The notes under the pieces are model-generated. The model was not told the origin of the DNA and did not search any database. It saw only the letters and a list, made by a program, of their open reading frames with translations. From assembly GCA_012839295.1 (NCBI GenBank), contig DUNO01000005.1, positions 310,001-374,000 of the forward strand: a stretch of DNA of 64,000 bases, read 5' to 3'. Origin of the DNA: Clostridiales bacterium (lineage in GTDB: Bacteria; Bacillota; Clostridia; Lachnospirales; Lachnospiraceae). This document shows positions 25,496 through 51,976 of this stretch, in pieces. Within the stretch, counting starts at the first letter, position 1, and every line of letters begins with the position of its first letter. A program made the position numbers and the translations under genes.

Positions 25496-25496
25496 A

Positions 25497-28641: not shown

Positions 28642-28683
28642 GTTTAGGCCATGTTCTTGAAGTAGATACAGTTAGTGCGACAC

Positions 28684-28740: not shown

Positions 28741-28790
28741 AATATGAAAAGCAATAATAGTGAAAACCTAGCGGTGGAGGTGTAAAGGTT

Positions 28791-30576: not shown

Positions 30577-30594
30577 TTACAGATGGAGGTGCCT

Positions 30595-32361: not shown

Positions 32362-32384
32362 GATGTAGTTGGAGGAGGGGAGCT

Positions 32385-33722: not shown

Positions 33723-33828
33723 AAATGTGCTTCTGTACAGACGGGCTTTCCTCCGGGTAAAATATAGATACAAGGTTGCAACTTTAATGAAAATTAAATG
33801 AGGTTTATGTTAAGGAGGAGAGCAGGCT

Positions 33829-35511
33829 ATGAAAAACAAGAAACGGTTTTTGGCTGTATTTGTTACATTTCTAATGGTTGTCTCTTTGCTGTATGGATGT
33901 GGAGGAAAAACTAACGACCCGGCACCCCAGACCAGTACCGGCAGTAGTTCAGACGCGAGCGTTTCCCAGCCGGCTGACGGCGGGGAGGATGGTCCCTTTG
34001 GTAAATATGCCGAGCCGGTTACGATTTCTGTGGTAAAGAATCTTGGGCAGAGCAGTATGGAATTTCCTGAGGGGGACAGTCTGGAAGACAACGTGTGGAC
34101 CAGGTATTACGAGGATCAATTCAATATCAGGTTCGACTGGAAGTGGTCCACCACACTGGAACAGTATGATCAGAAAGTGAATATCGCTATTACGTCAGGC
34201 GATGTGCCAGATGTGATGAAAGTGAACAGGACGCAGCTGAAGATGATGGTGGATAATGAGCAGGTTTATGACTTGACAGAGCTGGTTGATAAATATGCTT
34301 CTGATTTTACCAAGGAAGTTTTGAACGCTGATGACGGTGCGAGTTTGGACAGCGCTACTTTTAGTGGACGCCTGATGGCAATCCCTGCAATCGTATCAGA
34401 TCTGCAGAGTGCAAATGTTCTGTGGATACGTACCGACTGGCTGGGCAATTTGGGGCTGGATATTCCAGAGACCGTTGAGGACTTTTGGACAGTGGCTGAG
34501 GCATTCGCTACCAAAGATCCGGACGGCAACGGCGCGAATGACACATATGCTTTGGCCCTGAACAAGGATTTGTTTGGCACGGGAAGCGTATATGCCAGCG
34601 GTGAAGGATTCTTCAATATGTACAATTCTTATCCCAACATTTGGATTACCAAGGATGGGAAGCTGGCTTATGGCAGCATTCAACCTGAAGCAAAGGACGC
34701 TTTGGCGGCTTTGCAGGAGATGTATGCCAAAGGGTATATGGATCCGGAATTCGGTGTAAAGGATGCCAACAAGGTAAATGAAGACGTATGCGCAGGCAAG
34801 GCTGGAATGATGTTCGGAAACTTTTGGAATATGGCCTGGGTCAATGATGCCAAGGTGGCTGATCCCACCGTCGAGTGGGTGCCCGCTGCCATCCCTGGAA
34901 ATGCGAAAGCCCAGCTTTCCTTCGGTACCACCTCCTACTATGTGGTCAGCAAGGATTGCAAATATCCGGAGGCCGCCTTCAAACTGTTGAACGGTTATCT
35001 TGATAAAGGCTACGGCGAACATGCAGAGCCCCTTATATACAATATTACTCCGGAAGGGTACGGCCCCTTTGATTACCCCGTCATCACGATGGAGCCTTCC
35101 ATGAAGAACTTCGAAGCCGCGAAGAAGGTAACGGCTGCCCTGGAGAGCGGCGACACCAGCGGGTTAAATGCCGAGCAGATGAACTACTATGAGCTTTGCA
35201 AGCTGAGCCTGGCGGGCGACCACAGCAACAACAACTGGCACCAGCTCAAGATGTTTGGGCCTGGCGGCAGCCTCGGAGTGGTCCAGAAATATTGGGATAA
35301 TGGCAATGTGATGCCGGATTTGTATTATGGGCCGCCTACCCCGGCTATGACAGAAAAGAAATCGACCTTGGATAAACTGCAGCTTACTGATTTTTCTGTT
35401 ATCATCATGGGAGCCCCCGTCGACGATTTTGATAAATTTGTGGCCAACTGGTTAAACTTGGGCGGCCGGGATATGACCGACGAAGTAAATGAGTGGTATG
35501 CCAATAAATAG
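33829..35511 (+). CDS. Sugar ABC transporter substrate-binding lipoprotein (LplA/family 1 type)
   Basis: A 560-residue binding protein with signal peptide MKNKKRFLAVFVTFLMVVSL and lipobox LLYGC. A Ser/Thr/Asp-rich linker precedes the mature domain. TSGDVPDVMKVNR and EDFWTVAEAFATKDPDGNG (EF-hand-like DPDGNG) are typical of the large oligosaccharide/alginate-type binding proteins found with LplB/YtcP permeases. AAGGAGGAGAGCAGGCT precedes the ATG. A stem-loop follows the gene, and no ATPase is encoded in the operon, so a shared MsiK/UgpC-type ATPase elsewhere is expected. Confidence 0.92.
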   Translation: MKNKKRFLAVFVTFLMVVSLLYGCGGKTNDPAPQTSTGSSSDASVSQPADGGEDGPFGKYAEPVTISVVKNLGQSSMEFPEGDSLEDNVWTRYYEDQFNIRFDWKWSTTLEQYDQKVNIAITSGDVPDVMKVNRTQLKMMVDNEQVYDLTELVDKYASDFTKEVLNADDGASLDSATFSGRLMAIPAIVSDLQSANVLWIRTDWLGNLGLDIPETVEDFWTVAEAFATKDPDGNGANDTYALALNKDLFGTGSVYASGEGFFNMYNSYPNIWITKDGKLAYGSIQPEAKDALAALQEMYAKGYMDPEFGVKDANKVNEDVCAGKAGMMFGNFWNMAWVNDAKVADPTVEWVPAAIPGNAKAQLSFGTTSYYVVSKDCKYPEAAFKLLNGYLDKGYGEHAEPLIYNITPEGYGPFDYPVITMEPSMKNFEAAKKVTAALESGDTSGLNAEQMNYYELCKLSLAGDHSNNNWHQLKMFGPGGSLGVVQKYWDNGNVMPDLYYGPPTPAMTEKKSTLDKLQLTDFSVIIMGAPVDDFDKFVANWLNLGGRDMTDEVNEWYANK

Positions 35512-35543
35512 TATTGCCACATAATGACAGAAAGCAGAGTGTG

Positions 35544-35574
35544 GGTGGGGAGAGGTGCTACGCCGCTCCCCGCC
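35544..35574 (+). promoter_or_regulatory. Intercistronic stem-loop between binding protein and permease genes
   Basis: GGTGGGGAG pairs with CTCCCCGCC (9 bp) over a 13-base loop, without a T run. In ABC importer operons such hairpins usually stabilise the abundant binding-protein mRNA and lower downstream expression. Confidence 0.6.
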
Positions 35575-35594
35575 TGCCAGTTTGAGGGATTGCC

Positions 35595-36488
35595 ATGAAA
35601 AAAATGAAACGAAATCTTCCGTTGCACATCATGCTATTATCTGCCTTAATATTGATGTTAATATACAATTACCTGCCGCTGCTGGGGAACATAATGGCAT
35701 TTCAAAAATTTAATCCGACCAAAGGCTTTTTTCGCAGCGAGTGGGTGGGTCTGGACAACTTCCGGTATGTGTTCGCTATGCCGGATACCCTGCAAGTAGT
35801 ATGGAATACCTTTTTCATTGCCGTAATGAAGCTGATTATGGGGATTATCGTCCCGGTGATTGTAGCCTTATTGCTCAATGAGATGCGCTGTATCCGTTAC
35901 AAGCGCGCCCTTCAAACGATAGTCTATTTCCCGCATTTTTTAAGCTGGGTCATCTTAGCGGGTATCATGGTGGATGTCCTTTCCCCTTCCCGGGGTATTA
36001 TTGGAAAAGCCTTTACCGCCCTTGGATTAGAGGCGCCTTTCCTTCTGGGTGATGCAAATTTATTTCCTTTCACTATGGTATTCACGGAGACTTGGAAGGA
36101 ATTTGGTTTTGGCACTATTGTATACCTGGCCGCCCTTACCGGCATCGATCCTACCTTATATGAGGCTGCCGGAATTGATGGGGCAGGCCGGTGGAAACAG
36201 ACTCTCAATATCACGATTCCCTGCATTATGCCTATTGTGATGTTAATGACCATTTTAGCTATGGGAAATGTGCTGAATGCGGGCTTTGACCAGATATTCA
36301 ATCTTTATAGCCCCCAAGTATATGCTACGGGTGATATCTTGGATACACTTGTGTACCGTATCGGTATGGAGGACGCCCAATATGGTGTGGCTACCGCGGT
36401 TGGCCTGTTCAAAAGCGTTGTTTCCTTCCTTATGCTGTCCTTGTCATACGGGTTAGCTTACAAGTATACCGATTACCGTGTATTCTGA
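35595..36488 (+). CDS. Sugar ABC transporter permease, LplB/UgpA-like
   Basis: A 297-residue membrane permease with six predicted helices and the EAA loop (YEAAGIDGAGRWKQTLNITI). The N-terminus (LPLLGNIMAFQKFNPTKGF) is typical of the LplB/YteP group. GAGGG lies 6 bases before the ATG. Forms a heterodimeric pore with the next permease for import of an oligosaccharide. Confidence 0.93.
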   Translation: MKKMKRNLPLHIMLLSALILMLIYNYLPLLGNIMAFQKFNPTKGFFRSEWVGLDNFRYVFAMPDTLQVVWNTFFIAVMKLIMGIIVPVIVALLLNEMRCIRYKRALQTIVYFPHFLSWVILAGIMVDVLSPSRGIIGKAFTALGLEAPFLLGDANLFPFTMVFTETWKEFGFGTIVYLAALTGIDPTLYEAAGIDGAGRWKQTLNITIPCIMPIVMLMTILAMGNVLNAGFDQIFNLYSPQVYATGDILDTLVYRIGMEDAQYGVATAVGLFKSVVSFLMLSLSYGLAYKYTDYRVF

Positions 36489-36580
36489 GTGCATAGTTTG
36501 GGGAACTTAAAGCTCCATAAATAATGTTACTGTAGTCTAAAGCTATAAACAGAAAATTTTAAAAGGGGGTCACAGCGTAT

Positions 36581-37492
36581 ATGGATCATCAACGTCGTAT
36601 CAGAACTACGGGAAGGGCATCGGTTGGAGTGCGGATATTTTCCGTTTTCAATTATATATTTGTTACCTTAATTGCACTTACCTGTTTGTTGCCAATGGTG
36701 AATCTGTTGGCTATTTCTTTCAGCTCCAGCAGTGCGGTATCCACGGGGCAGGTGAGCTTTTGGCCGGTGGATTTTACATTGGAATCATATTCTTTCATGG
36801 CGGGGAAGCCGGAATTTTTTGCTTCAATGAAGATATCTGTCTTGCGTATTTTATTGGCCGTTCCCCTAAGCATGATCGTGTCTGTGCTGGCGGCCTATCC
36901 TCTTTCACGGCAAAATCATGAATTTGGGGCCAGAAAATACTATGTTTGGATATTTATTGTACCTATGATGTTTTATGGCGGGTTGATACCATCCTATATG
37001 GTAGTGCGTAATACTGGACTCATTGATTCTATTTGGGCGCTGGTACTGCCCTGTTCTATCAATGTGTTTAACATTATACTATTGATGAACTTTTTTCGTT
37101 CAATCCCCAAAGAGCTGGAAGAGGCGGCAGCCGTTGACGGTGCAGGGCATTTCCGCATTTTATTGCAGGTGGTGCTGCCGGTGTCAACTCCGGTGCTGGC
37201 CACCGTGTTGTTGTTTTTCATTGTCAACCACTGGAACTCCTGGTTTGATGGCTTGATTTATATGAATTCCCCCAGCAAATATCCCCTGCAGACCTATCTG
37301 CAGACCCAGGTCGTCAACCGGGCCCTCATGGCGTTGGAGGCCATGCGCGACATCCGGCGTATGGGGAATATTTCCGACCGCACGGGCAAGGCTGCACAGA
37401 TCTTTTTAGCCGCTGTTCCGGTATTAGCGGTATATCCATTTTTACAAAAATATTTTACAACCGGTATTGTCATGGGCAGTGTGAAAGGCTGA
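36581..37492 (+). CDS. Sugar ABC transporter permease, YtcP/LplC-like
   Basis: A 303-residue partner permease. The EAA loop reads LEEAAAVDGAGHFRILLQVV, and GGLIPSYMVVRNTGLIDSIW is characteristic of the YtcP/LplC group. Six helices are predicted, and the C-terminus ends in the family-typical YFTTGIVMGSVKG. It lies 92 bases after its partner. Confidence 0.93.
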   Translation: MDHQRRIRTTGRASVGVRIFSVFNYIFVTLIALTCLLPMVNLLAISFSSSSAVSTGQVSFWPVDFTLESYSFMAGKPEFFASMKISVLRILLAVPLSMIVSVLAAYPLSRQNHEFGARKYYVWIFIVPMMFYGGLIPSYMVVRNTGLIDSIWALVLPCSINVFNIILLMNFFRSIPKELEEAAAVDGAGHFRILLQVVLPVSTPVLATVLLFFIVNHWNSWFDGLIYMNSPSKYPLQTYLQTQVVNRALMALEAMRDIRRMGNISDRTGKAAQIFLAAVPVLAVYPFLQKYFTTGIVMGSVKG

Positions 37493-37519
37493 CGCATGCC
37501 GGAGAAGTAGGAGAGAACA

Positions 37520-40087
37520 ATGTGGAAAATTACCTCACCCAAAAAAAATTTGAGTGTTATTCTGCACCTTGGCGAAGAAGGCGCTATTGCATATGAGGTT
37601 ACGCTGGGAGGCAAGCCCTGTGCAAGCGGTGCGCTGGGCCTCGTCACCAGCCTTGCGGATTTCACCGGAGGGCTCCGTTTTGTTGAAATGGAGGCTCCGG
37701 CCGAAATCAACGAACGATATAGCTTACCCGCAGGAAAAAAGGCGGTGTACGAAAATCACTGTATAGAATCGCGCCTGCATTTTGTCCGGCAGGAAACGCC
37801 CTTTGTTTTGGTAGTGCGTGCCTATGATAACGGCGCGGCCCTCCGCTATGAGATTCCTGTAGAAGGAGAAGGATTTTCTGTGCTGCGGGAGAGCACAGAT
37901 TTCTGCTTTGCCGAAGGACTTGACGATGTTTGGCTGCAGGATTGGGTCGCTACTTATGAAGCGCCTTACAACAAAAGCAGCTGGGGCCCGGCGCACAATG
38001 GCCGTCATTACGGTATGCCGGTCTTGGTGGGAGGCGGCGCAAGCGGCCCATGGCTGATGGTGAATGAGGCAGCGGTATTGAATACCGGCGGCAGCTATTG
38101 TGTCAGCCATGTGAAGGGAACCGCTGCACGGCGGCTTACACTGGATTTCGCACCCGAGGAAAAGGGCGCGCCCATTCCATCGCCGCTTCCGTTCCAATCA
38201 CCTTGGCGCTATCTGCTGATAGCAGGTACCTTAGACGAGGTGGTGAACTCCACCTTGAATTACAATCTAAACCCGCCTGCCAAGATGGAGGACACAAGCT
38301 GGATTAAGCCCGCCCGCGCCTTATGGGCTTGGTGGATCAGTGACACAGGCGCACAGGTATTTACCGAGGTTAAGCAATATGTGGATTTTGCAGCTGCCAT
38401 GGGCTTTGAGGCAGTTGTGGTGGATGCGGGCTGGGACGAGACCTGGATCCGGCAGTTTTGCAATTATGCCCATGCCCGGAACATCTCCCCCTGGCTGTGG
38501 ACGGCTATGCAGGATATCGATACCGAGGAAACTGCCGGTTATTATTTACCTCTGTGGAAAAGCTGGGGGGCTGACGGCGTAAAAATCGATATCTTTGAAA
38601 ATGACTCCGCCCACACTGCGTGGCAGTATAACATGATGGCGGATATCATGGCCAGAGAAAAGTTGATGGTTAATTTCCACGGCTGCACAAAGCCCATGGG
38701 TGAGGGGCGCACTTGGCCTCATTTTATTGCCGCGGAAGGGATCATGGGGTTGGAGTACTACAAATGGAGAGACCAGCCAAACGCGGAACACAACTGCACG
38801 GTACCCTTCATCCGCAATGCCGCGGGGCCAATGGATTATACACCTGTTGGATTCACCAATAAAAACCGCAATACGTCCATGGCCCACCAAATGGCGCTGG
38901 CGGCAGTGTTTGAAAGTGGATGTACCCATTTTGCCGCCTCCATTTTTAACTTGGAGCCCTGGAGCGGCACAAGCTTTTTGCGCCGTTTAAAGCCCAAATA
39001 TGACGGCCTGCGCTTGCTTGCCGGCTATCCGGGAGACCATGTGGCTATATTGCGGTGGGTTCAATCGTCCGAGGAGTATGTGGTGGGCTGTATCTGCAAC
39101 CAAAAGCGTGCGATGCGTCTGCCTTTGGATTTTTTGCCGGAAGGTGATTTTGAGGCCGAGGTATACAAAGACGGCCGCTTTGGTGACGATATTCTTTGCG
39201 GACGCATGGCGGTAAACAGGGAGAGCATATTAGATATCCCCATGCTTGAGCACGGAGGGGCAGGCGTGTATATCGCCCGCAAAATCGAACCGCTTTCCAT
39301 TTTGCGGGCCGAAGGATATATGTGCGGGGATTACACGGAACTCTCTGCCGATGCTGCAAGACCCTTCCTGGGAAGCGTGCACGGGACAGTTTCCGAGGAA
39401 AATCCTGCTCCGGTCCTGGTCTTGCGCGGAGGAGCCGAGTTTGCATGTGAAGAAACGCTTCCCGCCGGGGCGGCTTCCATTCGTTTGTTTTATTGCGCCG
39501 AGGAGGCTTTCTCGCTTCAAATCAGCGACGGGATCTCTTCTGGACAGGCGAATGTTCCCGCCAGTGGATATGGAAACGTATTTTCTACCTATGATGTCGC
39601 ATTCCTCTTTGCCGGAGGGCCGGCTAAGCTGGTATTAAAAAAGCAGCGGGGCGCTACCCCCTCGCTGGAGAAGCTCCGCATTATACGTAACGCTCCTGTG
39701 CAGGGCATGGTTTTGCCGGTGGAGACAGGTATCCTTTTTGGAGGCGGGAATCTTCTACCCGATTGCCGGGGAACCTGGCAGCTATGCAGTATGGAAAACG
39801 GTGCCGTACTGCGTATGCAAAATGTAATGCTGCCGCAAAGCGGCGAGTATATTTTACGCGTCAACTATTACGCAGGAATGACAGGCACCGCGCAGGTCAG
39901 CGCAAACGGTGGGCCGGCAATCCCTGCAAAATTGAGCGGTGTTGGCAAGTGGAGTTCCACCAGGGAAGGAGACCTCCTGGCCAGGGAAATCCTGCTCCCT
40001 CTCGAAAAAGGACCGAACACGATTGAAGTGACAGCATGCGAGGCGCTACCTGCGCTAAAGGAGTTGGTGCTTATGCCCAACGGTTAA
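37520..40087 (+). CDS. Second GH97 family glycoside hydrolase (855 residues)
   Basis: A paralogue of the first GH97 enzyme with the same order: N-terminal domain (SPKKNLSVILHLGEEG), RYSLPAGKKAVYENH, barrel with WIKPARALWAWWISDTGA, YVDFAAAMGFEAVVVDAGWD, and GADGVKIDIFENDS. FHGCTKPMGEGRTWPHFIAA and AEGIMGLEYYKW carry further active-site residues; the Asp of KIDI again fits the retaining GH97 nucleophile. The C-terminal 200 or so residues hold extra beta-rich, CBM-like regions not found in minimal GH97 enzymes. GGAGAGAACA precedes the ATG. No signal peptide, so it should act on sugar imported by the adjacent ABC system. Confidence 0.88.
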   Translation: MWKITSPKKNLSVILHLGEEGAIAYEVTLGGKPCASGALGLVTSLADFTGGLRFVEMEAPAEINERYSLPAGKKAVYENHCIESRLHFVRQETPFVLVVRAYDNGAALRYEIPVEGEGFSVLRESTDFCFAEGLDDVWLQDWVATYEAPYNKSSWGPAHNGRHYGMPVLVGGGASGPWLMVNEAAVLNTGGSYCVSHVKGTAARRLTLDFAPEEKGAPIPSPLPFQSPWRYLLIAGTLDEVVNSTLNYNLNPPAKMEDTSWIKPARALWAWWISDTGAQVFTEVKQYVDFAAAMGFEAVVVDAGWDETWIRQFCNYAHARNISPWLWTAMQDIDTEETAGYYLPLWKSWGADGVKIDIFENDSAHTAWQYNMMADIMAREKLMVNFHGCTKPMGEGRTWPHFIAAEGIMGLEYYKWRDQPNAEHNCTVPFIRNAAGPMDYTPVGFTNKNRNTSMAHQMALAAVFESGCTHFAASIFNLEPWSGTSFLRRLKPKYDGLRLLAGYPGDHVAILRWVQSSEEYVVGCICNQKRAMRLPLDFLPEGDFEAEVYKDGRFGDDILCGRMAVNRESILDIPMLEHGGAGVYIARKIEPLSILRAEGYMCGDYTELSADAARPFLGSVHGTVSEENPAPVLVLRGGAEFACEETLPAGAASIRLFYCAEEAFSLQISDGISSGQANVPASGYGNVFSTYDVAFLFAGGPAKLVLKKQRGATPSLEKLRIIRNAPVQGMVLPVETGILFGGGNLLPDCRGTWQLCSMENGAVLRMQNVMLPQSGEYILRVNYYAGMTGTAQVSANGGPAIPAKLSGVGKWSSTREGDLLAREILLPLEKGPNTIEVTACEALPALKELVLMPNG

Positions 40088-40184
40088 TATTACATATTAT
40101 GAGGGTTATTCGTGTCATTCTTTGCTTTCGACGGAAAACAAGGTAAGTGATACAAAATGAATAATTGCAAAAACAAATGCCATT

Positions 40185-40221
40185 ATAAAGGTGTAGCCCA
40201 TAAAGCTGCACCTTTATTTTT
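40185..40221 (+). terminator. Terminator at the end of the sugar locus
   Basis: A 13-bp stem with one G-U pair (ATAAAGGTGTAGC with GCTGCACCTTTAT), a 7-base loop and a T run. Confidence 0.9.
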
Positions 40222-40274
40222 TGCTGCTCCCAAAACCTCCCTTTAATACCGGACATGGTAAATGAGAATATAGG

Positions 40275-40390
40275 AAATTGCGTGTATGCAAGATGTATAA
40301 AAGGGTGAAAAAGATGGGCAAAACCTTTTGGGATCCAACAATGGACAGTCGGATTAAAAGATTGAATTAACGTATATTTTGATGTATAAT
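40275..40390 (+). repeat. 116-bp promoter repeat, copy B (right flank of the sugar locus)
   Basis: Counterpart of 26100-26215 in the same orientation, about 86% identical. It ends with TTGAAT (40362-40367), a 17-base spacer and TATAAT (40385-40390), the probable promoter of the sensory hydrogenase operon. Confidence 0.85.
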
Positions 40391-40522
40391 AGCACTAATA
40401 TACTACGGAAACTGGGTCTATGTTCCTGTAGTCGCGATGGATGGCGCAGAATCGGCGCCTTTTATTGGGAAGTTAAAAGACAATTTCCCATAACTTATAC
40501 TTATATACAGGAAGGCGAGACC

Positions 40523-41830
40523 ATGGAAGCATTAGATGAGCAACAATATTCCCAGTTATTACAATCGGCGCCGGGAGGAGTGGCAAAAATCGCGTTGGAC
40601 GATATGCTTACTCTGTTATACGCAACGGACAAGTTTATTTCGATGATAAAGAAGGTGTCAGACAGGGCAAGCGTTAAATTACCAGCTTCCCTGCTCCGCA
40701 TGGTCTATTCGGCAGAGGTTATAAATTTAACCCAGCAGCTGGCTAATGAGAAGCAGCGTAAGGACAATATGATTAATTTCCATTTCAGGGTATTACAGCA
40801 GGACGGAAGCTTTCGGTGGTTGATGATTTCAGGCAGCAGGACGGAGGAAAGCTACATAAGCGGGTCGAAAACGGTACCGGTTTACTGCTGCAGCATAGTT
40901 GATGTAACCTACCTTATGGTAGAGTATAAGAAATTAGAGCAGACCTGCGAATACCACCGGGTTATTTCTGAGCTGGCAAAGGAATTATTTTTTGAATACG
41001 AGATTGCTGGTGACAGGTTGACATTTTCTGAGCAATTCCGTGAAATCTTTGGAAAGGAAAATGCGATAACGGGCTTCCGTAAAAAGCTGGAAAAGACAAG
41101 CATCATACATGAATCGGAATTACCGGCGGTAGTATCCATTTTCAACAGCATGATGAACGGAAGAAAGCAGGTGAGGTTTGAGCTCAGGCTCATCGGGAAG
41201 GATGGTATCCCCACCTGGTATACCTGCTATGCATCCATTATCTTTGATGATAACCGGAATCCGTATAAGGTCGTGGGCAAGGTGTCTACGATGACAATCG
41301 TGGCAAAGGAGGAGGAGCATGAGATCTATACTCCCCAGCTGGACACGGTTTCGAATGTGTGTACAAGGGCTTCGGCGGAAATAATGCTTAAGGAAGCAGC
41401 AGAGAGTCAGGCGGAGGACGCCGTCAGCGCCCTGATCATGATCGATATCAGGAACTTTAAAGGCATCAATGAGGTGAGGAGCAGGATTGATGGTGAAAAT
41501 ATCATGACCTCTGTCGGCAGGGTATTAAAGAGCATGTTCCGTACCAGTGACATCATAGGAAGACTCAGCTTAAGTGAGTTTGTCGTATACATTAAGAATG
41601 TTCCCTCGGACCGGATGGTATATGAGAAGGCCGACCAGCTTTGCAAAGCCATAGAAGGAATCCACTCCTATGTGCATACCAGGAATGGTTTAGTGGCCAG
41701 CATGGGAATCACGATGCACCAGGGTCCGGCAGACCATAAGCAGTTGATGGCAAATGCATCGACAGCCCTGGTCATGGCAAAAAAGGTACCGACAAGCTCC
41801 TTTGAAGTATTCAGCGGTTCGGTCTCCTAA
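40523..41830 (+). CDS. PAS-domain protein with degenerate GGDEF domain
   Basis: A 435-residue cytoplasmic signalling protein. The ATG at 40523 follows AGGAAGGCG; upstream in-frame ATGs lie within the promoter. Two PAS-like regions are seen: residues about 1-140 (FRVLQQDGSFRWLMISGSR) and about 150-270 (FELRLIGKDGIPTWYTCYAS). The C-terminal part (about 285-435) has the diguanylate cyclase fold, including ALIMIDIRNFKGINE. The GGDEF loop reads GRLSLSEF, so cyclase activity is very unlikely. It may serve as a GTP- or c-di-GMP-binding or protein-interaction module. First gene of the sensory hydrogenase operon. Confidence 0.8.
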   Translation: MEALDEQQYSQLLQSAPGGVAKIALDDMLTLLYATDKFISMIKKVSDRASVKLPASLLRMVYSAEVINLTQQLANEKQRKDNMINFHFRVLQQDGSFRWLMISGSRTEESYISGSKTVPVYCCSIVDVTYLMVEYKKLEQTCEYHRVISELAKELFFEYEIAGDRLTFSEQFREIFGKENAITGFRKKLEKTSIIHESELPAVVSIFNSMMNGRKQVRFELRLIGKDGIPTWYTCYASIIFDDNRNPYKVVGKVSTMTIVAKEEEHEIYTPQLDTVSNVCTRASAEIMLKEAAESQAEDAVSALIMIDIRNFKGINEVRSRIDGENIMTSVGRVLKSMFRTSDIIGRLSLSEFVVYIKNVPSDRMVYEKADQLCKAIEGIHSYVHTRNGLVASMGITMHQGPADHKQLMANASTALVMAKKVPTSSFEVFSGSVS

Positions 41831-41999
41831 AAATAAGCAATGGATAAGTCATTATAAAAAATATTGGTAAAAATGACATTGATCCACATATATATGTAAC
41901 GTGTAGTCTGGAGTGCTTTTAAAAACCGGCAGGGAATCAGCCGCAAGGCGGCCTGGAGGGAAGGGCAGGGAAGTGCTCCGCACATAAATGGAGGGTTTT

Positions 42000-42353
42000 A
42001 TGACGATAGAAGATATCAGGGAGATACTGGGAGCAGAATACGTTGTCGGTGAAGAGTGGAAGGACAGGGAGGTCCATACGGCCTGCGGTTCTGATATGAT
42101 GAGCGATGTCCTGGCATTTATGAAGGATCAATCCGTACTGCTCACCGGTTTATGCAACCTGCAGGTGATACGTACCTGTGAAATGATGGATATCATTTGT
42201 ATTGTTTTTGTCAGGGGAAAGCTGCCCGACGAGGGGATGATAGAAATGGCGAAGGAAAAAGAGATTGCAATCCTTACCTCGGGGCATAGGATGTTCTCTG
42301 CCTGCGGAATGCTCTATGAAAAAGGTTTGCGGGGAGGTCCGGATTATAAATGA
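42000..42353 (+). CDS. DRTGG-domain protein (first copy)
   Basis: A 117-residue protein with the DRTGG fold, a small domain found beside CBS and phosphotransacetylase modules, probably ligand-binding. The ATG at 42000 follows GGAGGG by 4 bases. Pattern: TIEDIREILGAEYVVG, DMMSDVLAFMKDQSVLLTGL and LTSGHRMFSACGMLYEKGL. Its last codons overlap the next gene (ATGA type), so the two are coupled. It is paralogous to the DRTGG protein at 44215-44550 in the same operon. Confidence 0.82.
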   Translation: MTIEDIREILGAEYVVGEEWKDREVHTACGSDMMSDVLAFMKDQSVLLTGLCNLQVIRTCEMMDIICIVFVRGKLPDEGMIEMAKEKEIAILTSGHRMFSACGMLYEKGLRGGPDYK

Positions 42354-42778
42354 ACAACGATACAATAGTAATGTCCTATGTGGTTCCCGCTGATGATTTT
42401 ACGAGGGCGGGGGAAGCCTCCAGCAATGTTAAGGGCAAGCTCAAGAAAATGGGGGTTCCTCCTGAAATTGTCAGGAAGGTTGCGATTGCCATGTACGAGG
42501 GAGAGATCAATATGGTAATACATGCTACAGGCGGGACAATTGATGTCACCGTATCACCGGAGGAAATTCTGATGGTCTTAAAGGATCAGGGGCCGGGGAT
42601 AGAGAACATTGACCTGGCCATGCAGGCAGGATATTCAACAGCTCCCGATAATATCCGATCCCTCGGCTTTGGAGCCGGGATGGGGCTTCCCAACATGAAG
42701 CGGTATACGGATGAAATGGAGATCGAGAGCAAGCTTGGCGTGGGAACAACGGTAACGATGAAGGTAAAGATGGTTTAA
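42350..42778 (+). CDS. Anti-sigma-factor-like serine kinase/HATPase protein
   Basis: A 142-residue GHKL ATPase of the RsbW/SpoIIAB kind: IAMYEGEINMVIHA (N box), LKDQGPGIENID (G1), GFGAGMGLPNMKRYTDEM (G2) and GVGTTVTMKVK. It may phosphorylate or bind a partner protein; no sigma factor or anti-anti-sigma gene is adjacent, so a role coupled to the hydrogenase sensor is more likely. The start codon overlaps the stop of the preceding DRTGG gene. Confidence 0.85.
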   Translation: MNNDTIVMSYVVPADDFTRAGEASSNVKGKLKKMGVPPEIVRKVAIAMYEGEINMVIHATGGTIDVTVSPEEILMVLKDQGPGIENIDLAMQAGYSTAPDNIRSLGFGAGMGLPNMKRYTDEMEIESKLGVGTTVTMKVKMV

Positions 42779-42861
42779 CAGGTGTTTCACAAACCATTTT
42801 GCGGTTGTCTGGCTGATGCCCGAAGCCGGCAGGTGGTATTTAGGAAAGGCATGGTTTTTAT

Positions 42862-44145
42862 ATGGGTAAGTTTTTTACATCAGTTCATCTAAAAGAAGAC
42901 CTATGCATGGGGTGTATCAATTGCATCAAACGCTGCCCAACACAGGCCATCCGAGTTAGAAATGGAAAAGCGGTAATCACAAAAGAATTCTGCATTGACT
43001 GTGGGGAATGTATCCGCATCTGCCCCCATCATGCAAAGGAAGCTACATATGATTCACCCGAGATTATGAAGAGGTTTGAATATACGGTAGCGTTGCCGGC
43101 TCCTTCCCTATATGGGCAATTCAACAATCTGGATGATGTCAATATTGTGCTGACAGCCTTAAAGAGGATGGGGTTTGATGATGTCTATGAGGTGAGCGGT
43201 GGGGCTGAGCTGGTATCTGAGCTGTCCAGGAGTTATGTCTCAGAGCATAAGGAGAAATGGCCGGTCATAAGCACCGCCTGTCCCTCCGTTGTGCGGCTCA
43301 TCCAGGTGCGTTTTCCGAACCTGATCGAGCACCTCCTGCCCGTCTGCGCGCCGGTGGACCTGGCGGCTTCCCTGGCAAGGGAAAAGGCGATGGCAATGAC
43401 AGGCCTTCCAAAGGAGAAGATAGGGATCATCTTCATATCGCCCTGCCCTGCCAAGATGACGGCAGTAAAGGCTCCGATTGGGATTGACCATAGTGAGATT
43501 GATGGGGTGCTTGCCATAAAGGAGGTTTATCCGATCCTGCTTCCCCATATGAAGAATTGCGTTGATAATGTGGAAGAGCTAAGTATCTCCGGCCGCATCG
43601 GCATCGGCTGGGGAAGTACCGGTGGAGAGGCGGGGAGCCTCCTGTCCGATAATTACCTGGCGGCGGACGGTATTGAGAATGTAATAAAGGTGTTAGAGGA
43701 TCTGGAAGACCAGAAATTTGACCAATTGGAATTCATAGAGTTAAATGCCTGTGCCGGAGGCTGTGTCGGAGGGGTATTGACCGTCGAAAATCCGTACCTG
43801 GCCAAGGTGAAGCTGAAGCGGCTCCGCAAATACCTTCCCGTAGCCTGTAACCATCTGGCGGATGGAAATGGTGAGGGAGCCTTCTGGACCGATGAGGTAA
43901 AATATGAGCCGGTATTTAAGCTGGGCAATGATATGAAGGAAAGCATCGCCAATATGTCAAGGGTGGAGGAGTTGTGTAACCTGTTTCCAAAGCTGGACTG
44001 CGGTTCCTGCGGTGCACCCACCTGTAAGGCATTGGCGGAGGATATTGTGCGCGGCGTTGCGAAGGAACAGGATTGTATCCATATCCTCCGTGATTACATC
44101 CACAGGCTGTCTGATGAGCTGTTAAAACTCGATACAAAGAAATAG
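42862..44145 (+). CDS. hydS: Sensory-type [FeFe] hydrogenase-like iron-sulfur protein
   Basis: A 427-residue protein. Two N-terminal ferredoxin clusters (CMGCINCIKRCP, CIDCGECIRICP) precede an H-cluster domain with altered motifs: L1 STACPSV near residue 138 (the usual TSCCPxW loses its first, proton-shuttling Cys to Ala but keeps the ligand Cys), L2 SPCPAKMTAVK near 194, L3 ELNACAGGCVGG near 298. A C-terminal Fes-type 4Fe-4S domain follows (DCGSCGAPTCKALAEDI, near 379). This pattern fits putative H2-sensing hydrogenases such as Thermotoga HydS, which bind the H-cluster but turn over slowly. Neighbours (DRTGG, HATPase, degenerate GGDEF, PHP) support signalling over bulk catalysis. Confidence 0.85.
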   Translation: MGKFFTSVHLKEDLCMGCINCIKRCPTQAIRVRNGKAVITKEFCIDCGECIRICPHHAKEATYDSPEIMKRFEYTVALPAPSLYGQFNNLDDVNIVLTALKRMGFDDVYEVSGGAELVSELSRSYVSEHKEKWPVISTACPSVVRLIQVRFPNLIEHLLPVCAPVDLAASLAREKAMAMTGLPKEKIGIIFISPCPAKMTAVKAPIGIDHSEIDGVLAIKEVYPILLPHMKNCVDNVEELSISGRIGIGWGSTGGEAGSLLSDNYLAADGIENVIKVLEDLEDQKFDQLEFIELNACAGGCVGGVLTVENPYLAKVKLKRLRKYLPVACNHLADGNGEGAFWTDEVKYEPVFKLGNDMKESIANMSRVEELCNLFPKLDCGSCGAPTCKALAEDIVRGVAKEQDCIHILRDYIHRLSDELLKLDTKK

Positions 44146-44214
44146 TTCCTTTTAAGCGGAAAATTTTTGCTGATGCCCAAATTCGCAGTCTTTGGCAAAA
44201 TGGAGGGTTAATTT

Positions 44215-44550
44215 ATGAAGGTTAATGATATCATAGAAAAGTGTGGCTTTAAGGTACTGAATTTAGGGGAAAGCCCTGACAGGGAAATTTCAGCCCCTTA
44301 TTGCTGTGATTTATTAAGCATTGCCATGGGAAAGATGCCTGCAGATTCTGCCTGGGTGACGGTCATGGGTAATATCAACACCCTTGCAGTTGCCACCCTG
44401 GCTGACGCTTCCTGCATTATTCTTGCAGAAGGGAGCCGCCTGGATGAAGCAGCCCTGCAGAAAGCGAAGGATCAGGGAATTACGGTGCTGATGACGGAGC
44501 TTCCCATCTTTGATGCGGCACTTAAGATCTACCAGGGACAGCATGCTTAA
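44215..44550 (+). CDS. DRTGG-domain protein (second copy)
   Basis: A 111-residue paralogue of the DRTGG protein at 42000-42353: KVNDIIEKCGFKVLN, DLLSIAMGKMPADSAWVTV, and the C-terminal ITVLMTELPIFDAALKIYQG. GGAGGG lies upstream of the ATG. Its stop codon lies inside the start of the following PHP gene. Confidence 0.82.
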   Translation: MKVNDIIEKCGFKVLNLGESPDREISAPYCCDLLSIAMGKMPADSAWVTVMGNINTLAVATLADASCIILAEGSRLDEAALQKAKDQGITVLMTELPIFDAALKIYQGQHA

Positions 44551-45262
44551 GCTTTCTTATGACCTGCATATCCATTCTTGCCTGTCTCCCTGTGGTGATG
44601 AGGATATGACACCGGCGAATATCGTTGCAATGTCAGCGCTGAAAGGGCTGGATGTCATTGCAGTTACAGACCATAATTCCTGCAAAAACTGCCCTGCCGT
44701 TTTAAAATGGGCAAAGGAGTATGGTCTGATAGCAATTCCGGGCATGGAGCTTTGTACCATGGAGGAGGTTCATGCGCTATGCCTGTTTGAAGAATTATCG
44801 GATGCCCTGCGGTTTGATGAATATGTATATTCCATGCTGATGCGCTATCCTAATGATGAGAGGGCTTTTGGAAAGCAGGAGATTTATGATGATGAGGACC
44901 AGCTGGCAGGGACGGAGCCCTATCTGCTGATCAATGCGACGAATATTTCCTTTGATGAGCTTGGGGGTCTGATGAAGAAATTTGGCGGGGTATATATTCC
45001 TGCACATATTGACAAAAATTCCAACAGCCTGATATCCAATCTGGGGTTTATTTCACCGGATGCAGATTTTGTAGTTGCTGAGCTGGCTAATAAAGATAAT
45101 TATGAGAGGCTTGGCAAAGGGAACCCATACTTGTACCAGTGCAATATCATAACGGATTCGGATGCCCATTCCCTGGGGGATATCAATGAGGCGTCTAACT
45201 TCCTGGAATGTGGAAGCCGCAGCAGTGGCGGTGTTTTGGAGGCTTTGACGAAATCCGGGTAA
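44543..45262 (+). CDS. PHP-domain metal-dependent phosphoesterase
   Basis: A 239-residue phosphoesterase of the PHP superfamily. Metal-binding motifs: DLHIHSCLSPCGDEDM, VTDHNSCKN, PGMELCTMEEVHAL, PAHIDKNSN and ITDSDAHSLGD. The ATG at 44543 overlaps the DRTGG stop codon. PHP proteins next to hyd genes are frequent in Clostridia (recollection); substrate unknown, perhaps a nucleotide or phosphoprotein in the signalling chain. Last gene of the operon. Confidence 0.9.
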   Translation: MLKLSYDLHIHSCLSPCGDEDMTPANIVAMSALKGLDVIAVTDHNSCKNCPAVLKWAKEYGLIAIPGMELCTMEEVHALCLFEELSDALRFDEYVYSMLMRYPNDERAFGKQEIYDDEDQLAGTEPYLLINATNISFDELGGLMKKFGGVYIPAHIDKNSNSLISNLGFISPDADFVVAELANKDNYERLGKGNPYLYQCNIITDSDAHSLGDINEASNFLECGSRSSGGVLEALTKSG

Positions 45263-45280
45263 GGTAATACTGGGGAGCTG

Positions 45281-45364
45281 CCACGGATTTCGATGCCACG
45301 GATTTCGATGCCACGGATTTCGATGCTACGGATTTCAATGTTACGGATTCTAATATTACAGATT
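45281..45364. repeat. 15-bp tandem repeat array, 5.6 units
   Basis: Three perfect units of CCACGGATTTCGATG (45281-45325), then progressively diverged units (CTACGGATTTCAATG, TTACGGATTCTAATA, partial TTACAGATTG). It lies 18 bases after the PHP gene, before the asnS promoter. Confidence 0.95.
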
Positions 45365-45378
45365 GAAAAGGTATCTTG

Positions 45379-45406
45379 TTGAAATCTCAATAATTTGTGA
45401 TATACT
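45379..45406 (+). promoter_or_regulatory. asnS promoter
   Basis: TTGAAA at 45379-45384, a 16-base spacer and TGATATACT (extended -10, hexamer 45401-45406). A leader of about 130 bases follows, with small hairpins such as CCAAC-CGAA-GTTGG but no T-box features seen. Confidence 0.6.
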
Positions 45407-45542
45407 AAAGCGTAGCGGGAATAGTGCAAACAAGTTTGTGCGTCAAGCTTGCTTGGGACTCCCAACCGAAGTTGGAAATCATGGATAAGATCTATGATAT
45501 GCTTAACTGAAAAAGCCTATACTATAAACAAAGGAGTTTATT

Positions 45543-46934
45543 ATGGATTTATTGGATATCAGAGAATTATACCGCAACAAAGAAAAATATATCGGAACGA
45601 AGGTTTCTGTTGGCGGTTGGGTCAGAAGCGTGAGGGATTCTAAGACCTTCGGATTTATTGTGTTAAATGACGGGACTTATTTTGAGACCCTCCAGGTGGT
45701 TTATCATGATAAATTAGAGAATTTCGCAACTGTTTCAAAATTAAACGTAGGCTCTGCAATTATTGTAAAGGGTGAGCTGGTGGCAACCCCACAGGCAAAG
45801 CAGCCCTTTGAAATCCAGGCAGAGGAAGTCGTGATAGAGGGAGCTTCAACAGCGGATTACCCCCTGCAGAAGAAGAGGCATACCCTGGAATATCTCCGTA
45901 CCATGACACATTTAAGGGCAAGGACGAATACCTTCCAGGCGGTGTTCCGTGTACGTTCCATGATCGCATATGCGATCCACCAGTATTTCCAGGAGAGGGA
46001 TTTTGTGTATGTCCACACCCCGATTATCACAGGAAGTGACTGTGAGGGAGCAGGGGAAATGTTTAGGGTTACAACCCTGGATCTGGACAACCTTCCAAGA
46101 ACCGAGGATGGAAGGATTGACACTACCCAGGATTTCTTTGGCAAAGAAACCAATCTGACCGTAAGCGGGCAGCTGAATGGTGAAACCTATGCCATGGCCT
46201 TTAAGAATATTTATACCTTTGGACCGACCTTCCGGGCTGAGAATTCCAATACGACCAGGCATGCGGCTGAATTCTGGATGATTGAGCCGGAGATCGCATT
46301 TGCGGACCTGAAGGATGATATGGCGCTGGCAGAGGGAATGTTGAAATATGTGATCCGTTATGTGTTGGAGCATGCGCCGGAGGAGATGGGCTTTTTCAAC
46401 CAGTTCATCGACCAGGGTCTGCAGGACCGCCTGAGCAATGTGGTAAATTCAGAATTCGGACATGTAACCTATACGGAAGCCATTGATATCTTAACAAAGA
46501 ATAATGATAATTTTGACTATAAGGTATCCTGGGGCTGTGACCTTCAGACAGAGCATGAGCGCTACCTGACGGAGCAGGTGTTTAAAAAGCCGGTATTCGT
46601 AACGGATTATCCGAAGGAAATCAAGGCCTTCTATATGAAGCTGAATGAGGATGGCAAGACCGTTGCGGCTATGGATCTTCTGGTACCCGGAATCGGTGAG
46701 ATTATCGGCGGAAGCCAGAGGGAAGATGATTATGATAAGCTTGTGAAGAGAATGGAAGAGATGGGCCTTAAGAAAGAGGACTATGAATTCTATCTCGATC
46801 TTAGAAAATACGGTACTGCCAGACATGCGGGCTTTGGCTTGGGCTTTGAGCGTTGCGTAATGTACCTGACTGGAATGGGCAATATCAGGGATGTAGTTCC
46901 TTTCCCTAGGACTGTGAATAATTGTGAGCTGTAA
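45543..46934 (+). CDS. asnS: Asparaginyl-tRNA synthetase
   Basis: A 463-residue class IIb aminoacyl-tRNA synthetase that charges tRNA-Asn. The N-terminal OB-fold anticodon-binding domain ([20 protein letters not shown]) precedes the catalytic core, with motif 2 [20 protein letters not shown] and motif 3 [32 protein letters not shown] is typical of AsnRS rather than AspRS. AAAGGAG lies 6 bases before the ATG. Full length. Confidence 0.97.
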
Positions 46935-49343: not shown

Positions 49344-50621
49344 TTATACCTTCTCAATCTGATACTGGGAATTAATCACCAGCCACATCTGATTAAAATA
49401 ATACATGATGTTCCAAACACCGATCCCGGTAATCCCATACTTCTTAAGGATTTTTAATGAGGAATCTATACTTCTCGCATCCTTAAACCACACGATATGC
49501 TTAACATCACCAAAATCAGTATATTCAAAATATGCTGACAGGGAGGCCTCATCAAAATGGATGACGGCATTCATTTGACGGGCCAGGGACAGGACGGAAT
49601 CAAAATTAAGGACACTTGCCCTTGATTTGCCGTCCACATAGGGTAACGGCCAATCATAACCCAATGTTGGTATGGCGATCCGGATCTTGTTAAGGGGAAC
49701 CTGTGCCGTAATATAATCTAATAGGGAAGGGGTTGTGAAGATGGAAAATTGGGCAGGCGGCTTTCGTATGGAACCCCAATCATAGGCCAAAAACAGGATT
49801 CCGTCCGAAACCTCACTAAAACTGGAATAATTAATTTTTTCAAAGGTAACCTCATTTCCATTAAAGCTTAGCCCCGGATTAACGGTTAAAAATACAGAAT
49901 AGCCCTCAGGGTGCAATCTGTTTGATATCCTGGTCAAAAAGTTTAAATAAAGCTTCTGGTTGGCCGTATTGATTAATTGAAAGGTCATGTCCACCCCGTT
50001 GTAACCTTTTGTTTTTAGGATGTTAAGAAGGTTTTCAATAAGCTTATCCTGGACTTGCGGGCTTAGCAGCATTTCGTATACCATTTCTACATTAATCTCC
50101 CCGGATGCCGAGTGTCCGGTTGCAATTAAAATAGCTTCTGTTCCAAAGGATTTTGCAAGCCGGATAGCAGATATGTCCTCATCATTTCCTACAAACTCAC
50201 CATGATCGGCTATACGGTAATTTAATATGAGCAGCTGTGTAAGATTCGGCAATGTCATCCTAAGAACCCCATCATTAATAAAGGAGTAGGTATAGCCGAC
50301 GCTTAATAAGCTTCCATGACGGTTATCATAGCTTATGACTAAGGTCTCTCCGGGGTAAATATATTTTCTGTTTGCAAGATATGGGTTGTACCTAAGCAGC
50401 TGCATGACAGTTATATTAAACTGACTTGCAATACCTGCTAAGGTATCGCCCTCCCGTACAGTGTAGATTATTTCAGGAAAAGCAATAACCAGGGATTGGC
50501 CTACTACAAGGCTGCTAGGCTCCTTTATACCGTTATCTATGATTAACCTTTCAATCGACATGCCAAATTTATTGGCTATCAAATCTATGGTATCTCCTTG
50601 CTGGACCACATATATCTGCAT
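49344..50621 (-). CDS. LysM-GH18 protein, SleL/YaaH-like, catalytic residues lost (downstream copy)
   Basis: A 425-residue spore- or wall-binding protein. Two LysM domains (MQIYVVQQGDTIDLIANKFG and IYTVREGDTLAGIASQFN) precede a GH18 TIM barrel of the SleL/YaaH cortical-fragment type, but no signal peptide is seen, as in SleL-like spore proteins. The GH18 motif, normally DGxxxDxE, reads NGVDMTFQ: the catalytic Glu is Gln and the last Asp is Thr. It may therefore bind rather than cut peptidoglycan. Paralogue of the gene at 50699-51976. Confidence 0.87.
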   Translation of the reverse strand: MQIYVVQQGDTIDLIANKFGMSIERLIIDNGIKEPSSLVVGQSLVIAFPEIIYTVREGDTLAGIASQFNITVMQLLRYNPYLANRKYIYPGETLVISYDNRHGSLLSVGYTYSFINDGVLRMTLPNLTQLLILNYRIADHGEFVGNDEDISAIRLAKSFGTEAILIATGHSASGEINVEMVYEMLLSPQVQDKLIENLLNILKTKGYNGVDMTFQLINTANQKLYLNFLTRISNRLHPEGYSVFLTVNPGLSFNGNEVTFEKINYSSFSEVSDGILFLAYDWGSIRKPPAQFSIFTTPSLLDYITAQVPLNKIRIAIPTLGYDWPLPYVDGKSRASVLNFDSVLSLARQMNAVIHFDEASLSAYFEYTDFGDVKHIVWFKDARSIDSSLKILKKYGITGIGVWNIMYYFNQMWLVINSQYQIEKV

Positions 50622-50698
50622 AATTAACCTCAGTTATATCTTTGTACTAATATATGATATGGGATGTTTTATTTTTCATGTTTTTTATGGTTTCAGCC

Positions 50699-51976
50699 TT
50701 ATGGTTTTTCGATCTCATATTGGGTATTGACCACCAGCCATAGCTGGTCAAAATAATACATGATATTCCAAATGCCGATTCCCCTGATACCATAGCTCTT
50801 CAGGAGCTTTAATGAGGCATCGATACTCCTGGCATCCTTGAACCAGACAATATGTCCGAGGTTATCAAAATCGGTATATTGAAAATAGGCGGAAAGAATA
50901 GTTTCGTCATAATTAATGACAGAATTCGTTTCACGGGCGAGGGTCAATACGGAATGGAAATTAAGGGCATTGGCTCTTGAAACACCGGGAACATAGGGCA
51001 GCTTCCAATCATATCCAAGAGTAGGAATCTCTGTACGGATCTTATCAAGAGGAACCTGACTTACAATATAATCAAGCAAAGCAGGGGCTGATACGATGGA
51101 AAATGGAGTAGGGGGCCGTTGTACGGAACCCCAATCATAGGATAAAAAAAGTATGCCGTCCGATACCCGGCTGAATTCTGAATAATTTAGCCTTTCAAAG
51201 GCTACCTCTTTTCCATTAAAAGATACTCCAGGATTAATTGTTAAATATACGGGGTATCCCTCAGCGTGCAGGCGGATGCTAACCCTTTCTATAAAATCCA
51301 AATAATACTGCTGATTATCGGTGGTAATAAGCTGGAAGGCCATATTAACTGAATCATAACCCTTTGCTTTTACAATCTCAAGGAGATTTTCGATTAATAT
51401 TTCCTGGATTCTCGGGTTGAGCAGTACATCCTGTATGACAGTGGTATCTATCGCTCCGGTAGCTGAATATGCTGTAATGACAAGGCTGGAGGTGGTTTCA
51501 TATAACCCGGCAGTCCGGATAACGGATATGTCCTGGTCATCTCCGATGAACCCGCCACTTCCGGTAGAACGGTAATTGAGAATGAGCAGGCTGGTCAGAT
51601 AGGGTAATGTCATTCTTAGGATGGAGTCATCAATAAAGGAATAGGCATAACCGTCCACCCATAAGCTCCCATTATTATTATCAAAGCTGATAACTAAAGT
51701 TTCACCGGGGTAAAGATACTCCCGGTCAGCAAGATAAGGATTATTTCTCAGTAACTGCATCACAGGTACCTGAAAAGCCTCTGCAATACTGCCTAAGGTA
51801 TCCCCTTCCTTAACGGTATAGGTCTGGGTGGGATGGGTAATGACCAGAGTTTGGCCAACTACAAGGTCATCAGACGCATTTATTCCATTATCTATTACTA
51901 GTCTTTCAACTGATACGCCAAATCCAGAGGCAATCGAATCTATAGTATCCCCTTGTTGAACCACATATATCTCCAT
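50699..51976 (-). CDS. LysM-GH18 protein, SleL/YaaH-like, catalytic residues lost (upstream copy)
   Basis: Paralogue of the adjacent protein with the same 425-residue length and order: LysM (MEIYVVQQGDTIDSIASGFG), LysM (TYTVKEGDTLGSIAEAFQ) and GH18 barrel. The active-site motif reads DSVNMAFQ, again without the acid/base Glu and final Asp. Both keep the conserved YDWGS and C-terminal IRGIGIWNIMYYF segments, so the fold seems intact. The pair probably arose by tandem duplication; 77 bases separate them. Confidence 0.87.
   Translation of the reverse strand: MEIYVVQQGDTIDSIASGFGVSVERLVIDNGINASDDLVVGQTLVITHPTQTYTVKEGDTLGSIAEAFQVPVMQLLRNNPYLADREYLYPGETLVISFDNNNGSLWVDGYAYSFIDDSILRMTLPYLTSLLILNYRSTGSGGFIGDDQDISVIRTAGLYETTSSLVITAYSATGAIDTTVIQDVLLNPRIQEILIENLLEIVKAKGYDSVNMAFQLITTDNQQYYLDFIERVSIRLHAEGYPVYLTINPGVSFNGKEVAFERLNYSEFSRVSDGILFLSYDWGSVQRPPTPFSIVSAPALLDYIVSQVPLDKIRTEIPTLGYDWKLPYVPGVSRANALNFHSVLTLARETNSVINYDETILSAYFQYTDFDNLGHIVWFKDARSIDASLKLLKSYGIRGIGIWNIMYYFDQLWLVVNTQYEIEKP

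Follow-up and report, generated by a model that had tools for sequence, protein, structure and literature searches.

The 64,000-nucleotide stretch analysed here (the window) comes from a Clostridiales bacterium of the family Lachnospiraceae (GenBank assembly GCA_012839295.1, contig DUNO01000005.1, positions 310,001 to 374,000) and carries a cassette of six plus-strand genes arranged around a putative sensory [FeFe] hydrogenase, HydS. The cassette encodes, in order, a PAS protein with a degenerate GGDEF domain (40523-41830; PAS_3 E 1.3e-12 and GGDEF E 4.6e-19 in Pfam), a DRTGG protein (DRTGG1, 41988-42353; PF07085 E 8.8e-7), a SpoIIAB-like HATPase (H1, 42350-42778; spIIAB E 7.8e-17), HydS itself, a PAS-less hydrogenase of group D (M2e) type recognised from Pfam, a tree and an AlphaFold2 model (42862-44145), a second DRTGG protein supported by a family profile and by HydS-DRTGG2 fusions (DRTGG2, 44215-44550), and a PHP phosphoesterase (44543-45262; PF02811 E 3.1e-8). 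These positions and this order agree with a sequence-only reading of the window, which had also described the genes as overlapping; this holds for DRTGG1 and H1, which share 4 nucleotides, and for DRTGG2 and PHP, which share 8, but gaps of 157, 83 and 69 nucleotides separate GGDEF from DRTGG1, H1 from HydS and HydS from DRTGG2. The likely start of DRTGG1 is an alternative one at 42000, which has a better ribosome-binding site than 41988, and the probable start of PHP is the ATG at 44543, with PHP residues numbered below from a TTG at 44510. Neither promoter nor terminator scans of 40000-45700 rose above chance.

The bifurcating hydrogenase lies on the minus strand (20636-26039) in an operon that includes H2, a stand-alone GHKL ATPase with a C-terminal extension (24938-25495; PDB phmmer match 3d36, E 1.1e-9, and a structural model), and this bears out the earlier statement that the catalytic complex has its own HATPase. 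The remaining genes are the NuoE-like hydC (25497-26039) and the NuoF-like hydB (22616-24403), both assigned from open reading frame and homologue order, a small ferredoxin-like, HndB-like subunit assigned on the same grounds (hF, 24422-24793), and hydA, the group A [FeFe] hydrogenase catalytic subunit (20636-22411; PF02906 E 5.0e-102, L003; tree). We take the names hydC, hF and hydB from the HydABC/HndABCD nomenclature. An apparent island of sugar-transport and glycosidase genes, read by eye (26362-40087), splits this operon from the cassette in the window; in ten larger stretches from the same genus (L050-L059) the two adjoin in divergent orientation. The genome has three more hyd-like operons (L060-L062), with neither cassette nor H2 alongside.

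The conservation of the cassette was examined in four sets of loci: a named set comprising the best 80 of at least 594 relatives and biased toward close kin, 59 class-level loci, 10 order-level loci and 57 phylum-level loci. Family spread among the best matches listed guided the manual choice of all 59 class loci and of 40 phylum loci; the remaining 17 phylum loci were chosen because HydS was missing or odd or the H1 frame was long, and three further short stretches (L265-L267) stayed out of the counts. Among the matches listed, the nearest named organisms are Herbinix. The order DRTGG1-H1-HydS-DRTGG2-PHP was complete in 72/80 named, 53/59 class and 6/10 order loci, the four incomplete order-level loci all being without PHP, and this recurrence argues that the cassette is not a chance arrangement. 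Bifurcating hydrogenase genes, scored as hydB, or hydC with H2, within about 9 kilobases, were near in 66/80, 42/59 and 5/10 loci, respectively. The association is further strengthened by a sample of 249 genomes from the phylum, in which HydS occurred in 105 and H1 in 109: 104 genomes had both, 5 had H1 only, 1 had HydS only and 139 had neither, a table that depends on the thresholds used (HydS E <= 1e-70, H1 E <= 1e-30). In the sole HydS-only genome (G597), HydS sits at a contig end (L233). The module also reaches Bacteroidota, where a record of Parabacteroides distasonis labelled as a plasmid (L067) holds DRTGG1-H1-HydS-DRTGG2-PHP-H2.

The GGDEF gene behaves differently from its neighbours. 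Seven of the 10 stretches from the same genus have it, as do four of the 80 named loci (L069, L070, L071 and L073, four of the five nearest to the window), and it was absent from all 59 class, 10 order and 57 phylum loci (0/126 wider loci). Its GGDEF signature is degenerate, reading SLSEF. Both its genus-level distribution and this signature speak against the PAS/GGDEF protein as part of the circuit, where the sequence-only reading had placed it; it was rejected as a circuit member on its distribution across loci and is probably a genus-level add-on outside the conserved module.

HydS keeps its cluster ligands but lacks the proton-shuttle Cys. Pfam recovers Fe_hyd_lg_C (E 2.6e-32), the FeS domain PF04060 (E 1.6e-11) and Fer4 matches, with no Pfam match to a PAS domain in the window protein. 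Across 161 HydS proteins (159 distinct, two repeating others), the eight N-terminal cluster Cys that correspond to two 4Fe-4S sites and the four H-cluster Cys were kept in 161/161, and no more than 91 residues (median 31) follow the last FeS Cys. The proton-shuttle Cys had been read as replaced by Ala in the window protein, and it is (STAC140P); at this position, which corresponds to Cys299, Cys was found in 0/161 and Ala in 150/161 proteins. The extra FeS cluster noted earlier is likewise present as a C-terminal Cx2Cx4Cx16C motif (C380/383/388/405), which recurs in 160/161 proteins, the exception, apparently L145, having a gap there because the contig ends within it. The Met353 position holds Ser or Thr in 159/161 and the Met497 position holds Asn in the window, with Asn in 95/161 and Leu in 42/161 overall. 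In a tree of 58 proteins, among which the group D representative TamHydS is not a row, the 38 HydS rows formed one clade (support 100/99) that excludes the group A, B and C-type rows, with the C-type row L065 on a long branch of unsure placement. The AlphaFold2 model (mean predicted local distance difference test score, pLDDT, 79.9; predicted template modelling score 0.81; residues 245-262 and 307-329 scoring under 50) agrees with solved [FeFe] hydrogenases, with a best E of 7.6e-17, template modelling (TM) scores by query length of 0.50-0.62 and root mean square deviations mostly of 5-7.

By these sequence marks, HydS carries the published features of the group D (TamHydS-type) putative sensors. 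TamHydS of Thermoanaerobacter mathranii (group D/M2e) is likewise PAS-less, with two N-terminal 4Fe-4S sites and a C-terminal Cx2Cx4Cx16C motif (PMC8163306, PMC11803613, PMC13104023), lacks Cys at the Cys299 position and has Ser at the Met353 position (PMC8163306). Its gene lies near a HATPase gene and upstream of a trimeric bifurcating hydrogenase, and the residue numbers nearly align (C20, S191, L291 and C379 against C21, S193, N295 and C380 in the window), although the Met497 position, Asn in the window protein, is Leu (L291) in TamHydS. The published flanks of TamHydS comprise the HATPase and an AraC regulator, whereas the links to DRTGG, PHP, Rnf and CBS are known from the present loci. 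TamHydS turns over slowly and is regarded as putatively sensory (PMC8163306, PMC11803613), and the question of how a sensor without PAS relays its signal is raised as an open one (PMC8163306). A 2026 report names TamHydS as the only characterised group D enzyme and describes a C-terminal cluster that stays unreduced even at 1 atm H2 (PMC13104023); its main text makes no mention of an operon, a kinase or DRTGG.

The source genome contains nine [FeFe] hydrogenase matches. One of these (L064 7017-9900, G000:C77) is a HydS of group C type, whose PAS match is borderline, beside a SpoIIE-type phosphatase, so that two or more sensory-type hydrogenase kinds coexist in one genome. Another (L065 7019-8956, G000:C34) is a hydrogenase-like protein of 646 residues that includes a fused MCP chemotaxis signalling domain; it forms the long branch of the tree and has an ETF-alpha carrying Fer4 domains nearby. 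In two phylum-level loci (L208 13469-15772 and L209 13643-15979), a HydS-like protein of 767-778 residues with a C-terminal HATPase region lies near the group D cassette.

The sequence-only reading had called the cassette ATPase anti-sigma-like. H1 has SpoIIAB as its nearest solved structure (PDB profile 1til, E 7.2e-11) and resembles the SpoIIAB/RsbW anti-sigma kinases in sequence, length and catalytic Glu/Asn, but it falls below the cut-off of the SpoIIAB family TIGR01925 (61.5 against 135 bits), lacks a sigma or STAS partner, and is instead found with DRTGG proteins, HydS and sometimes a fused CBS pair. An anti-sigma role in the strict sense was rejected on the failed cut-off and the lack of a linked sigma gene. 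E50, N54, D79, G81, G83 and the lid glycines G106, G108, G110 and G112 were present in 193/193 unfused H1 proteins; we take E50 as the catalytic Glu, N54 as the Mg-binding Asn, and the DxGxG motif with the Gly-rich lid as those of a SpoIIAB-type Ser/Thr kinase, residues from which H1 may be a kinase. DRTGG1 scores above the Pfam cut-off of 25.2 bits (29.2) and DRTGG2 just below it (22.8), and the family profiles of both match DRTGG2 copies in relatives. The DRTGG1 profile also matches the CBS-pyrophosphatase structure 3l2b and AF_1212 (2ioj), with E about 4-5e-5. The regulatory region of CBS-pyrophosphatases combines CBS and DRTGG domains; the module likewise brings the two together, here in neighbouring genes, but it lacks a pyrophosphatase and distributes the domains among a kinase-like ATPase and several small proteins.

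In PHP, the residues H20, H22, D54, H55, E80, H88, H166, D218 and H220, presumably the metal-ligand set, were kept in 188-190 of 190 proteins, and with the catalytic residues of H1 and PHP both kept, chemistry is to be expected of them. Cys28, in an SPCG stretch near the metal site, is invariant (190/190) and is perhaps redox-sensitive. The two ATPases differ, H1 being nearest SpoIIAB and H2 being nearest by sequence to histidine-kinase CA domains. The H2 model (pLDDT 88.7) includes a confidently modelled C-terminal extension, an alpha/beta region in which D109, P112 and G114 are kept in 171-172 of 172 proteins. In Foldseek, the best matches to the whole model were TopoVI and MutL-type ATPases, at low TM-scores, followed by histidine kinases. 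H2 accompanied hydB in 60/60 named, 41/41 class, 1/5 order and 45/50 phylum loci, counts limited to hydB loci because the nearness of hyd genes may itself rest on hydC with H2; of the five phylum loci with hydB but no separate H2, two have a PHP-H2 fusion and three hold extra HydS copies.

Gene fusions provide further evidence on which products belong together. None was found in the first three locus sets, where the profile matches were NuoF ferredoxin domains against the HydS profile. Among the 57 phylum loci, DRTGG1 is fused to H1 in eight loci from three families (L216, L237, L246, L254-L257 and L259), HydS to DRTGG2 in L208 and L209, H1 to HydS in L210 (626 residues, in a stretch where DRTGG1 and PHP were not found), PHP to H2 in L224, L240 and L241, and a tandem CBS pair to H1 in L227, L248, L249 and L250. 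Pfam confirms the fusions in L237, L208, L210 and L241 and all four CBS-H1 proteins. Thus DRTGG1-H1, H1-HydS and HydS-DRTGG2, and separately PHP-H2, each occur somewhere as one protein. The earlier proposal is supported in part: the hyd linkage bears out a HydS-centred module tied to the bifurcating hydrogenase, the H1-HydS and DRTGG1-H1 fusions make a HATPase the nearest partner, and the PHP-H2 fusions link PHP to the second HATPase.

Restriction to the hydrogenase proved too narrow, since the module also adjoins rnfCDGEAB and persists without HydS. In L045, L046, L194 and L200, the module with H2 lies ahead of rnf genes with no hyd genes near, and in L158, L171, L191 and L207, hyd and rnf genes share one stretch; Rnf genes were named by Pfam in L046 and elsewhere by hidden Markov models made from L046. 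On a quick tree of 79 HydS proteins without bootstrap, the eight Rnf-linked rows need eight changes, at least six of them forced by supported branches, and this scatter indicates that the Rnf association arose repeatedly. In the phylum set, of which 17/57 were chosen for odd features, 18/57 loci were Rnf-linked, 13 with hyd and 5 without. Six loci from five H1-only genomes carry the module without HydS: DRTGG1 and H1 occur in all six, DRTGG2 in four, PHP in two, H2 in four and CBS-H1 in three, and five of the six lie near Rnf, two of these also near hyd. The Rnf linkage and the persistence without HydS suggest that the module probably has inputs besides H2 and clients besides the hydrogenase.

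A connection to redox control of transcription is suggested by Rex. A Rex gene overlaps the DRTGG1-H1 fusion gene in 7/8 fusion loci, with Rex confirmed by Pfam in L237. Using TTGTTAAN4TTAACAA, which we take as the Rex operator consensus, Rex-like palindromes with at most two mismatches were found in 20/64 divergent hydC/cassette regions versus 4/271 other intergenic regions of the same loci (Fisher P-value 1.6e-12, which overstates independence, the genomes being related); an earlier run gave 23/70 regions versus 20/1400 shuffles. In the window, a Rex-like site lies just upstream of hydC (26052-26069, plus strand; 3 mismatches of 14), weak when taken alone, and a near-identical copy with two mismatches occurs in L054/L072 and L056. 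On the cassette side of the window, a Rex site was rejected, the best matches having five mismatches upstream of GGDEF and four in the GGDEF-DRTGG1 gap. Promoter and terminator scans upstream of hydC exceeded chance (10 versus 4.3 and 4 versus 1.0) and were not used.

Taken together, the conserved order, the co-occurrence of HydS and H1, the fusions, the linkage to hyd and Rnf, the kept residues, the Rex-like operators and the slow, putatively sensory character of TamHydS argue for a module that acts as a redox/energy switch for HydABC and Rnf, both of them ferredoxin/NAD-coupled complexes, a reading to which we give a probability of roughly 0.55. HydS, expected to be slow, would use its H-cluster and accessory clusters to read H2 or ferredoxin, and its conformational change would pass to H1, the SpoIIAB-like ATPase/kinase and immediate partner, with the DRTGG proteins serving as adaptor or ligand-binding subunits in one assembly, D1-H1-HydS-D2. 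Where a lineage carries a tandem CBS pair on H1, this pair may replace or supplement HydS and bring adenylate charge into the same switch. PHP and H2 would form a second arm, usually encoded beside the target operon, whose point of action might be the Hyd/Rnf complex itself or some phosphorylated or nucleotide intermediate. We infer the sensing of H2 or ferredoxin by HydS, the kinase activity of H1 and its target, the direction of control and the substrate of PHP, and the signalling may be phosphorylation- or nucleotide-based. The fullest version, a hitherto undescribed class of anaerobic signalling module in which HydS and CBS are interchangeable gates on a single SpoIIAB-type kinase that, with DRTGG adaptors and a PHP-GHKL arm, directly controls HydABC and Rnf, the two main complexes coupling ferredoxin and NAD, as a redox/energy valve, is offered tentatively and falls somewhat short of an even chance.

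Several observations weigh against the switch. The label for nearby hyd genes is unclustered on the quick HydS tree (27 changes versus 24.7 in shuffles), scattered as by chance, which indicates a fluid genomic context, and neither hyd nor Rnf was near in 14/80 named (several of them short contigs), 15/59 class and 3/10 order loci. The HydS-DRTGG2, PHP-H2 and H1-HydS fusions each come from one family, and the 58-protein tree contains no TamHydS sequence. Genomes G466, G597 and G620 have additional HydS copies (L231, L234 and L236, respectively) that stand beside hyd genes and a DRTGG gene, with H1, PHP and H2 not found there. The Rex-like site of the window has three mismatches, with none near the cassette, and the conserved set includes no sigma factor, STAS protein, response regulator or phosphorylation substrate. 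The modelled H2 fold is as near to TopoVI/MutL-type ATPases as to histidine kinases, a likeness that would suit a conformational ATPase or an assembly factor.

This last point leads to the main rival, an assembly or repair module that would combine chaperone-like GHKL ATPases with PHP and DRTGG proteins for nucleotide or cofactor handling and use HydS as a maturation checkpoint or electron donor for HydABC and Rnf. Linkage to two unrelated flavin/Fe-S complexes, the predicted likeness of the H2 fold to TopoVI/MutL/HSP90-type ATPases and the occasional position of the module inside the hyd operon between hydC and H2 (L178, L179, L197 and L204) would all suit such a role. We nevertheless regard it as unlikely, given that the CBS domains on H1 and the overlapping Rex gene look regulatory and that the hyd-like operons without cassette or H2 (L060-L062) indicate that such complexes can exist without an adjoining cassette, help in trans being possible.

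Two further explanations retain the parts of the module but change their roles. In a classical partner-switch, H1 would be an anti-sigma factor or kinase for an unlinked sigma factor, and HydS would control hyd and rnf transcription; SpoIIAB is the solved structure nearest to H1, and known group C HydS/hfs loci hold a SpoIIE-type phosphatase (L066; L064 in the genome of the window itself), but sigma factor, STAS antagonist and SpoIIE all lie outside the conserved set and H1 stays far under the SpoIIAB cut-off, which makes this account quite improbable. HydS might instead be a low-rate catalytic hydrogenase or electron-transfer partner, its neighbours being unrelated regulators held in place by operon inertia. 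Every H-cluster and accessory cluster ligand is kept, and the second HydS copies lie by hyd genes without H1, as such an enzyme might; set against the H1-HydS and HydS-DRTGG2 fusions, the 104 genomes with HydS and H1 together versus six with one alone, and the proton-shuttle Cys missing throughout, this explanation is very hard to credit.

The module also differs from other described systems. That groups C and D might be sensory was proposed earlier, and hfsA/hfsB deletion phenotypes are known (PMC5707799, PMC11837493), deletion of either hfsA or hfsB raising the ethanol yield (PMC5707799). The group C (M2f) HydS/hfsABCD proteins (Ruminococcus albus HydS, T. saccharolyticum HfsB and T. maritima HydS) resemble the window HydS in their Fe-S/H-domain/FeS layout, an often missing shuttle Cys and a proposed regulatory role, but have a PAS domain and lie apart from the HydS family in the tree, and the R. 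albus and hfs loci hold a SpoIIE-type or serine phosphatase plus a further hydrogenase (HydA2/HfsD). Neither of these marks was seen in the cassette, with no PAS in HydS by Pfam and no SpoIIE among the cassette genes. Group C1 [FeFe] hydrogenases with a HATPase_C domain are reported from Hydrogenedentota (PMC11406978); like the L210 fusion, they join a GHKL ATPase and a sensory-type hydrogenase in one protein, but they fall outside the group D clade and their HATPase is histidine-kinase/HSP90-like, not SpoIIAB-like. Adjacency of hydrogenase and Rnf clusters was noted earlier in Tepidanaerobacter acetatoxydans (PMC4374699). Titles and abstract openings of the open-licence literature yielded no published description of a module around HydS; what is new is the module architecture, and what is known is the group D sensor class around which it lies.

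The H1-HydS, HydS-DRTGG2 and DRTGG1-H1 fusions point to candidate physical partners of a PAS-less sensor. In the loci viewed, HydS lies mostly by HydABC and at times by Rnf, complexes central to how much H2, ethanol and acetate gut, rumen and biofuel anaerobes yield. The conserved placement beside electron-balancing complexes suggests that the module probably tunes them to the redox and energy state of the cell; if so, a switch on HydABC and Rnf would alter the modelling and engineering of fermentation balance.

Other linked targets were also considered. PFOR was rejected, as two scanned neighbours (L157 and L161) out of four of 1181-1220 residues proved to be UvrD/PD-(D/E)XK AddA-like helicase-nucleases, and other complexes downstream of H2 in L188, L192 and L202 were rejected likewise, the scanned neighbours being housekeeping, transport or unknown genes, with L202 retaining hF after H2. 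Elsewhere in the window, two adjoining and similar 425-residue proteins with a LysM-like start by eye (49344-51976) appear to be a tandem duplication.

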